Positions 1,279 through 3,162 of a DNA stretch of 41,611 nucleotides are shown here, one piece after another. The stretch comes from a virus, in the IMG/VR virus record IMGVR_UViG_3300045004_000244, positions 1 to 41,611 of that record; one strand, given 5' to 3'. The notes below the pieces were generated by a model. The model saw nothing but the letters and a program-made list of their open reading frames with translations, was not told where the DNA came from and did not search any database. Within the stretch, counting starts at the first letter, position 1. Every line of letters begins with the position of its first letter. The position numbers were made by a program, and so were the translations under genes.

Positions 1279-1607
1279 TCGCCACCAAAATAGCGCGAGT
1301 CATACCCATAGGATTCGCTCGGTTTTCCGGCGGAAATCTGCGGGTTTTGGTCGAGTCGCTCAGCAAGCATTCAGGACGCGATTGGGGTGCCGGCTGGTCG
1401 AGAGAAATCGGGCCTCGGATGATAGAAAGCGGCGGATTTCAGAGCTTTTTCAGTCGAGATAACCCGGCCGGCTGAAGGGGCTCTTGAGTGGAGCGGCCCG
1501 ACGGGCTCCCACCGTCCTCACACCCCCAGGTCGGGGGCTCGTCGTCTGGACGGGCCGCTCGATCCTGCTGCCCCTGCTGGCGGCGAACTGCAACAGGCAT
1601 TTCGCCA
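1279..1607. other. intergenic stretch with a branched inverted repeat
   Basis: No convincing gene. A minus-strand frame begins with ATG 1607, overlapping the mom stop (TGATG), and could encode about 52 residues starting MAKCLLQF; its arginine-rich remainder looks like translated structure rather than protein. The right part holds the folded element described separately at 1491-1560. The left part (1279-1490) shows nothing I can name. Confidence 0.4.
1491..1560. repeat. nested inverted repeat, three stems
   Basis: Outer arms GAGCGGCCCG (1491-1500) and CGGGCCGCTC (1551-1560) are perfect complements. Inside lie two further hairpins: GACGG (1500-1504) with CCGTC (1512-1516), and CCCCC (1523-1527) with GGGGG (1533-1537). 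As RNA this gives a three-way junction on either strand. It sits just downstream of the mom-like gene. No T-run follows on either side, so it is not a plain intrinsic terminator; it may be an RNA 3' structure or a protein-binding site. Confidence 0.5.
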
Positions 1608-2354
1608 TCAGCCGTAATCGGGCTTCGGGTACGGCAGCGCCGGATATCGGCACGCCTTCGCGAACCGGGGTTTGAGGAAGCGCAGATATCGGAATTGCCG
1701 CAGCCTGTGCAGCGTCGCCCGGTCCCGATTGGCGCGGAGATGAGCGGCGCGGGGTCCGACCGACTTGCCGTTCGTCATGAGGCTGTCGTGATACCAATCC
1801 CCGTCCAGTTCCCAGAAGCGGCCGAGGTGCTCGCCGTGGAAGGTGAAGCCGGCCGCCTGATAGACCGTGCCGAACAGGCCGCAGCGCTCGTCGGCGAAGG
1901 ACTGAATCCATTTGACCGTCGCGCGGACGCGCCGGATCAGCCGGATTGAATAGGCGAGCGCCCGGCTTTCGCTGTTGCGAGGCGCGGCGTCGGCCAGCCA
2001 CATGCGGTTGAGCTCAAGATACTCGCTCATCAGCGTGCCGGGAACGACGCTGCCGGCCGACGCCGGGTTCATGGCATAGCCATATTGGAGGACGCCGAGC
2101 ATCTGGCCGCCGATGAAGACGCCAAGGTGCAGGGTCGACGCTGAATAAACGCGCCGGCTGTAATGGTTCGCGATGATGATCGCGTTCGCGACCTGGCGGT
2201 CGATGGTCGCGACATAGAAGCCCGCCTCTCCGAAGCCGATGGCCTCACGCTTGCCGAGGAGATCGGCGGACGGGTCGAAGATATAGCCGGCGCACTCGCC
2301 AGCAGCGCCGCCGATCGGAGCGATCGACGCCGGGAACGTTGGTAAAGACTCCAT
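1608..2354 (-). CDS. mom: Mom-like DNA adenine modification protein
   Basis: A 248-residue protein that I recognise as the Mom family of phage Mu, GNAT-like enzymes that convert adenine in phage DNA to a carbamoylmethyl form and so protect it from many restriction enzymes. Visible family landmarks in order: NHYSRR, TLHLGVFIGG, GVLQYGYAMNP, YLELNRMWLAD followed by PRNSESRALA, KWIQSFADE, and GTVYQAAGF near the C-terminus. I chose ATG 2354; the frame runs open to 2498 but the extra 48 residues are arginine/serine-rich and overlap hairpins. No Com-like zinc-finger regulator is seen next to it. It lies past the fibre genes, where phages often carry late accessory genes. Confidence 0.72.
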   Translation of the reverse strand: MESLPTFPASIAPIGGAAGECAGYIFDPSADLLGKREAIGFGEAGFYVATIDRQVANAIIIANHYSRRVYSASTLHLGVFIGGQMLGVLQYGYAMNPASAGSVVPGTLMSEYLELNRMWLADAAPRNSESRALAYSIRLIRRVRATVKWIQSFADERCGLFGTVYQAAGFTFHGEHLGRFWELDGDWYHDSLMTNGKSVGPRAAHLRANRDRATLHRLRQFRYLRFLKPRFAKACRYPALPYPKPDYG

Positions 2355-2375
2355 TGGGGATTTGGCCCTAGATGG

Positions 2376-2468
2376 TCCCGCCCTGTGCAGGGTGCGGGAT
2401 CGTTGCGGCTGGCCGGCCGCGCGTGACGAGGTGCTAAGGCTCGTCGGTTTCCGGGTTGCAGCCCGGAA
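2376..2468 (-). promoter_or_regulatory. structured leader of the mom-like gene
   Basis: Three consecutive perfect or near-perfect hairpins lie upstream of ATG 2354. The nearest, 2376-2399, pairs TCCCG with CGGGA around CCCTG/CAGGG with a two-base bulge, and ends 22 bases before the start codon. The second pairs GACGAG (2425-2430) with CTCGTC (2440-2445). The third pairs TTCCGGG (2449-2455) with CCCGGAA (2462-2468). In Mu, mom translation is controlled through a stem-loop that Com opens; similar control here is an inference. Confidence 0.45.
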
Positions 2469-2481
2469 CCCCCGCCCGGCG

Positions 2482-2501
2482 TCTATGGGATTTCCCATAG
2501 A
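2482..2501. promoter_or_regulatory. 20-base palindromic operator candidate
   Basis: TCTATGGGATTTCCCATAGA: 9-base perfect arms with a TT centre, in the divergent region between the mom-like gene and the toxin-antitoxin operon. A protein-binding site is the simplest reading; the partner is unknown. Confidence 0.4.
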
Positions 2502-2525
2502 CCGAGGCGGACGTGTCTTTTATAA

Positions 2526-2560: not shown

Positions 2561-2854
2561 ATGTTCACGACGATCGCCACCACCCGCTTCACCGACTGGC
2601 TCAAGGGCCTGAAGGATCGCAAGGGCGCCTCGAAGATTGCCGCCCGGATCGCCCGCCTTCAGGGTGGCAACCTCGGCGACGTGAAGAGCGTCGGCGGCAA
2701 GGTGAGCGAGCTGCGGATTGCCTTTGGCCCCGGCTATCGCATCTACTTCACCCGCCGGGGCGAGCAGGTGATCATTCTGCTTTGCGGCGGGGACAAGGGT
2801 TCGCAGGCGCGGGACATCAGGCTGGCGCAGGAAATGGCGGCAGAGATCGAATGA
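2561..2854 (+). CDS. RelE/ParE-superfamily toxin (addiction module killer)
   Basis: A 97-residue protein of the phage-derived Gp49-like/HigB-type killer family. Typical features: an N-terminal TTRFTDWLKGLKD helix, RIARLQGGNLGDVKSVGGKVSELRI-like core with the beta strands LRIAFGPGYRIYF and VIILLCGGDKGSQARDI, then a C-terminal helix. Family members are usually mRNA-cleaving toxins neutralised by the downstream antidote. Stop overlaps the in-frame ATG at 2851, and the antitoxin follows after 14 bases. Toxin-first order matches HigBA-type modules. Confidence 0.82.
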   Translation: MFTTIATTRFTDWLKGLKDRKGASKIAARIARLQGGNLGDVKSVGGKVSELRIAFGPGYRIYFTRRGEQVIILLCGGDKGSQARDIRLAQEMAAEIE

Positions 2855-2868
2855 AGGAAGGACGAGAC

Positions 2869-3162
2869 ATGGCTATCGAACTGGTGCCGTTCGACGCGGC
2901 CGAATACATCACCGAGCCCGAGGATCAGGCCGAGCTCCTCGCGGAGGCGCTCGCCACCGGCGATCGCGGTCAGATTGCGCATGCACTGGGCGTCGTCGCC
3001 CGTGCGCGCGGCGGCCTCGGCAAGCTCGCCGAGGAAACCGGGCTTCAGCGGCAGGCGCTCTACAAGGCTCTCAGCGCGGATGGAAATCCGCGTCTGGATA
3101 CCTTCCTGCGCGTGCTGTCGGCGCTGGGCGTGACCCTCAAAGCCGAGCGGAAAGCCGCATGA
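2869..3162 (+). CDS. HigA-like antitoxin (addiction module antidote)
   Basis: A 97-residue helix-turn-helix antidote: HALGVVARARGGLGKLAEE, then the recognition region TGLQRQALYKALSADGNP and LDTFLRVLSALGVTL, matching the addiction-module antidote family partnered with RelE/HigB-like killers. It should bind the toxin and repress the operon at the palindrome over the -10 element (2543-2558). ATG 2869 has GAAGGA eight bases upstream; the ATG at 2851 overlaps the toxin stop and is an alternative. Its stop overlaps the next small gene (ATGA). Confidence 0.82.
   Translation: MAIELVPFDAAEYITEPEDQAELLAEALATGDRGQIAHALGVVARARGGLGKLAEETGLQRQALYKALSADGNPRLDTFLRVLSALGVTLKAERKAA

Follow-up and report, generated by a model that had tools for sequence, protein, structure and literature searches.

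The mom locus described here is a mom module without com, from a temperate siphophage of sphingomonads, plus two extra nucleic-acid parts, a conserved leader of five helices before mom and an RNA resembling tRNA-Gly after it. Our joint explanation, to which we give slightly better than an even chance, is that the tRNA-Gly-like RNA would act as glycyl donor for Mom and that the leader would control modification genes in place of Com. As far as the tools and the literature searched show, the leader and the tRNA-Gly-like partner of mom are undescribed, and our literature search turned up no paper connecting Mom to glycyl-tRNA and none on the leader.

A mom gene without com

The window (the whole stretch of DNA analyzed) is a virus record of 41.6 kb. 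Based on PHROGs matches, which include terminase, portal, major head, tape measure, and integrase, it is an HK97-type temperate siphophage, as the lambda/HK97-type siphoprophage context given in the initial annotation implied. Close relatives of this phage are found in Rhizorhabdus, Sphingobium, and Sphingomonas genomes. The same annotation had recognized a Mom-type gene by its motifs, which are present in the ORF as quoted, and the profile searches confirmed it (Table 1): the protein encoded by the 248-aa ORF at 2354-1608 (minus strand) scores 227.9 bits with the Mom profile PF25680, for which the curated cutoff is 27.1. HYSRR, ELNRMWL, PRNSE, SFADERCG, and VYQA are kept relative to the Mu Mom structure 8bv8. 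The window gene is a true Mom relative and a known kind of gene, predicted from its sequence to modify adenine at N6. A frame of 296 aa was rejected for mom; relatives have an in-frame stop 12 nt upstream of the ATG, and for this reason we consider the ATG of the 248-aa ORF to be the true start.

A com gene had not been seen in the window before, and searching with PF10122 gave no match either there or in any leader-bearing phage record tested, whereas Com was detected in both com-type control records (L021 and L092). The window does not have the com-mom operon arrangement, in which a Com zinc-ribbon gene lies upstream of mom. The locus resembles the Mu com-mom operon in that the two Mom proteins are about 50% identical and share the same conserved motifs and in that the gene is close to one end of the genome of a temperate phage. 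It differs from Mu in lacking Com, in having a five-helix leader that is common to methyltransferase genes, and in having the tRNA-Gly-like RNA beside mom, which Mu does not have.

Several other features of the window were recorded. A divergent toxin-antitoxin pair (Gp49/HigB-like toxin and HI1420/XRE antitoxin; 2561-3162, plus strand) adjoins the leader, and in Sphingomonas paeninsulae the equivalent position is taken by BrnT/BrnA. Accessory genes at 1-1278 (a 130-aa ORF and small ORFs) recur next to D12 modules in three other loci (L151, L169, and L186). A tRNA-Met (CAT) gene is located within the phage at 28922-28998 (minus strand), beside the HNH and terminase region.

Table 1. Features of the mom locus in the window
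Feature	Position	Strand	Basis
mom gene, 248 aa, Mom-family GNAT DNA-modification enzyme	1608..2354	-	Pfam PF25680 1.2e-67; phrog_1384 8.4e-54; PDB 8bv8 Mu Mom 1.6e-63
Conserved five-helix leader element upstream of mom	2375..2517	-	model R1, 109 bits; covariation; unbiased column scan recovers helices
Leader P1, variable apical hairpin, conserved CCG/CGG base	2472..2510	-	fold and covariation
Leader P2	2446..2470	-	fold and covariation
Leader P3	2425..2445	-	fold and covariation
Leader P4, loop mostly GGCC	2405..2420	-	fold and covariation
Leader P5 with CA bulge, end 21 nt before mom ATG	2376..2399	-	fold, covariation, and spacing
tRNA-Gly-like RNA	1489..1558	-	cloverleaf fold; covarying family; cloverleaf scanner; adjacent to Mom-family genes
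tRNA-Gly-like RNA, acceptor stem	1558-1552/1499-1493	-	7 bp
tRNA-Gly-like RNA, short D-arm	1551-1541	-	
tRNA-Gly-like RNA, anticodon arm	1538-1522, ACC at 1531-1529	-	
tRNA-Gly-like RNA, T-arm	1516-1500	-	5 bp, 7-nt loop
tRNA-Gly-like RNA, 3' end	U73 at 1492, CCA at 1491-1489	-	

A tRNA-Gly-like RNA next to Mom-family genes

The RNA starts 49 nt past the mom stop codon, outside the interval covered by the initial annotation, from which it was absent. It folds as a cloverleaf with a UCCA end, and all 17 of its 17 pairs were found by a cloverleaf scanner that gave no match in 1.57 Mb of shuffled sequence. It has the 7-bp acceptor cloverleaf, the CCA, the T-arm, and the anticodon arm expected of a tRNA-Gly but not a canonical D-arm, and it was called by neither ARAGORN nor Rfam. 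With bacterial tRNA-Gly it shares the acceptor GCGG...CCGC-U73-CCA, C35 and C36, the geometry of the T-arm and anticodon arm, and a 5-nt variable loop. It differs in its region 8-20, which is only 13 nt long and without the canonical D-loop GG, in its T-loop, which is mostly UGCAACC or UGCGACC instead of UUCRANN, and in the occurrence of all four letters at position 34.

The scanner does not depend on the model and finds true tRNAs; it detected perfect 7+5+5-bp CCA cloverleaves in 25 mom loci, just after mom. Model R3 added one locus (L020) and confirmed the com-type locus L021, where the RNA coexists with com. In both cases the RNA is directly after mom, and neither was in the training set. 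When 150 Sphingomonadaceae genomes were scanned, only two had the RNA, both with a close mom. A DNA pattern that is blind to Mom, made up of the acceptor ends and the D region with the T and anticodon arms left free, matched 41 viral contigs among 2.9 million. In 38 of these 41, a Mom-family gene lies within 600 nt of the RNA in the stretch examined, versus 0 of 23 control loci, and as L404 is a short stretch of a contig that also holds a mom gene (L008), the count becomes 39 of 41. No Mom-family gene was seen in L415 and only a weak one in L393. Nearly all contigs have the Mom-family gene at a distance of 0-500 nt. Many of these Mom-family genes are only distantly related to the window Mom; four were confirmed by the Pfam Mom profile (1e-11 to 4e-30). 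The isolate phage Pan3 also has both a Mom gene and the RNA.

Among 40 unique copies, the pairs of the T and anticodon arms alternate between CG, GC, AU, and UA, with mispairs at GU:AC 37:6, a bias toward sense RNA like that of true RNAs. All 40 copies have CC at positions 35-36, and position 34 can be A, C, G, or U. G1-C72, C2-G71, G3-C70, and U73 are present in the copies, the acceptor end and U73 having been fixed by the pattern itself for most of them. The bacterial GlyRS identity set includes G1-C72, C2-G71, G3-C70, U73, C35, and C36, and the RNA matches it. The covariation of the tRNA-Gly-like RNA and its association with Mom genes are thus both shown.

The RNA can be located after the Mom-family gene, before it, overlapping it, or on the opposite strand. 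As its position varies in this way, even between strands, it is the RNA rather than a peptide that is conserved. In four contigs (L399, L400, L403, and L408) it precedes the gene, and in three of these (L399, L403, and L408) it overlaps the start of the frame and is read as an N-terminal tail.

The RNA is not present at every mom locus. Near the mom genes of Mu, PAN70, JD024, pAEv1818, MaGuCo, and Y8A it was not found, most other IMG/VR mom loci are without it, and it was not found at the chromosomal distant Mom-family loci of Sphingomonadaceae. These absences mean that Mom does not universally require the RNA.

Could the cloverleaf be an ordinary or decaying phage tRNA, or the remnant of an attachment-site tRNA, that merely shares an accessory slot with mom? 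tRNA genes are frequent in phages and also serve them as integration sites, and mom modules sit near prophage ends and integrases. We nevertheless consider this unlikely, as ARAGORN and Rfam fail to recognize the cloverleaf, the D region measures 13 nt in all copies scanned, and the RNA follows Mom-family genes across very distant phages, also in the middle of the genome. In addition, genomes without a close mom are also without the RNA, and D12 genes occupying the same slot do not have it, except for a remnant beside the D12 gene of L163 (L163:157-218), as if D12 had replaced mom there. That the element is instead conserved as a C-terminal Mom peptide (AARPxDEP...GAAP) with an incidental RNA fold is very improbable: it is in frame as a protein tail in many distant Mom genes, but it is outside the ORF in the window and in most close mom genes, on the opposite strand in Sphingomonas aquatilis DSM 15581 (L086) and in L088, and before the gene in L399, L400, L403, and L408, and it shows compensatory changes and a GU bias.

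Glycyl-tRNA as a possible donor for Mom

The unusual adenine that Mu Mom makes is a glycinamide adduct. It has been named N6-methylcarbamoyl adenine, or ncm6A (PMC8281217). For the Mom donor, the standing guess has been an acyl-CoA such as glycyl-CoA, which work on jumbo phages assumed (PMC7824862). The GlyRS identity nucleotides, the truncated D-arm, and the close linkage to Mom suggest Gly-tRNA as the donor instead of acyl-CoA. We propose that the host glycyl-tRNA synthetase most likely charges the RNA and that the truncated D-arm would exclude it from normal translation. Mom would then take the glycyl-tRNA as acyl donor for adenine N6, and a rearrangement of the resulting glycyl adduct could yield the glycinamide-type product of Mu. 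Phages without the RNA, including Mu, would need the host tRNA-Gly or another donor. There may thus be a class of phage Mom enzymes with their own translation-poor glycine tRNA, in which the glycyl group passes from the tRNA to adenine N6 to give a glycinamide adduct; we see this as evenly balanced between right and wrong. In the Fem system of staphylococcal cell-wall synthesis, a dedicated, nonproteinogenic tRNA-Gly that is poor in translation feeds a transferase. Unlike in that system, the proposed target here is DNA adenine and the enzyme is a GNAT-type Mom.

A conserved leader before DNA-modification genes

The leader of mom was previously described as three hairpins, one ending 22 bases before the start. 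A structured leader is indeed present, but it consists of five helices, P1 to P5, the last of which ends one base closer to the ATG. The interval 1608-2468 given for the feature covers mom and only part of this leader (2517-2375, minus strand). The fold of the window leader has a z score of -3.96 relative to shuffles, none of 200 being as good, and in relatives the element measures about 125 to 150 nt, again with five helices. Both sides had changed in 12 of 34 pairs among the first 17 sequences, a count not reached in any of 500 shuffles. With alignments fitted to the model, 19 of 34 pairs had changed on both sides in 20 sequences outside model building (19 of them from loci without mom) and 29 of 34 in 59 sequences (207 cells, versus 42±5 in shuffles); in a scan of all column pairs, likewise on the fitted alignment, the P1 to P5 helices rank at the top, and no pseudoknots or additional helices appeared. 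The leader is a real, conserved, covarying element. An Rfam covariance-model search found no match, even at E 1, and a known riboswitch family was rejected on this ground.

Leader matches were found in 25 of 398 Sphingomonadaceae genomes. Most genomic matches are away from mom, upstream of D12-class adenine methyltransferases, and for that reason we rejected the idea of a Mom-only element. In L117 the leader precedes an operon of com, C5, and D12 genes, and in L102 it precedes an IS insertion. Viral contigs found with a separate DNA pattern had it at twelve more D12 loci and before one gene with a weak MarR-like match. A class-wide sample of alphaproteobacteria, searched at E 0.001, yielded only a genome already known. 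The leader is always on the sense strand of the downstream gene, and P5 is 19 to 21 nt from the start codon in 35 of 51 leaders and 14 to 24 nt in all.

At this one locus (L117/L142) the leader is followed by com, a C5 cytosine methyltransferase gene, and a D12 methyltransferase gene in the operon of L117, so that Com occurs without mom in a leader operon. Weaker relatives of the leader (38 to 57 bits with model R2) are present on sphingomonad chromosomes (L126, L128, L119, and L123; larger stretches L130-L133), directly after the stop codon of a gene for an unknown SISGSMS-type protein, two of them near yebC and gapR. The phage leader may have in them a relative that belongs to the host, either RNA or DNA. 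Phage D12 methyltransferase genes in L236-L256 have multihairpin leaders of similar layout and strongly diverged sequence, some of which are below detection by the model.

How the leader might act

Our first choice, which we judge to have about an even chance, is that the leader controls expression from its fixed place before the start codon. In phage DNA-modification genes, those for Mom and for D12 and C5 methyltransferases, it would set a fixed element some 20 nt upstream of the start codon and would most likely control expression, replacing Com. This leaves the earlier suggestion that a toxic DNA modification is controlled differently here plausible rather than demonstrated: the leader is found where Com is missing and its spacing to the start codon is fixed, but D12 and C5 methyltransferase genes have it as well, no SD-masking hairpin stood up to a swap control, the accessibility of the start region equals that of shuffles, and the mispair statistics give no sign of sense-RNA behavior. 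It resembles riboswitch-type translational leaders as a covarying multihelix element with fixed spacing to start codons, and it differs from them in having no Rfam match, no sense-RNA mispair bias, and no known ligand.

The leader may instead act as folded DNA, for example as a recombination or binding site for exchanging modification genes, and not as mRNA, which we regard as possible but rather less probable. Over 59 sequences its mispairs are at GU:AC 33:34, whereas the cobalamin and TPP riboswitches of the same hosts are at 110:14 and 31:5; this equality may reflect folded DNA or an RNA tolerating no wobble. The antisense strand of the leader folds better, and the same element stands before unrelated modification genes that share their first codons (ATGGAGTC). 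Against this reading, the leader is always on the sense strand, and in 35 of 51 cases its distance to the start codon is 19 to 21 nt, as would befit translation control; the 3' side showed no matching cassette boundary; and in the 17 closest sequences (A2) GU exceeds AC by 8:1.

In Mu, Com opens the TIS of mom, an SD switch (PMC6483171). A comparable leader, with the ribosome-binding site sequestered by a terminal hairpin, seems improbable here. In many leaders, GCTC..GAGC-like hairpins are possible immediately downstream of P5, but swapping the 5' halves between leaders gave equally stable hairpins (360/500) and the accessibility of the start region equals that of shuffles; the SD-sequestering hairpin (P6) was rejected on these grounds. 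Two other candidates were also rejected: a promoter directly upstream of the leader, where there is a sharp conservation edge only and no motif, and P5 as an intrinsic terminator, as it has no U-run.

The conserved leader had, to our knowledge, not been described, and it picks out the genes for DNA modification of sphingomonad prophages that lack Com. If the glycyl-tRNA proposal is true, it would identify the donor of the group that Mom adds and connect tRNA charging with DNA modification in a new way. We know of no other DNA base modification that draws on a charged tRNA. The presence of a glycine tRNA-like RNA that tracks Mom genes across distant phages makes the glycyl-tRNA donor directly testable.
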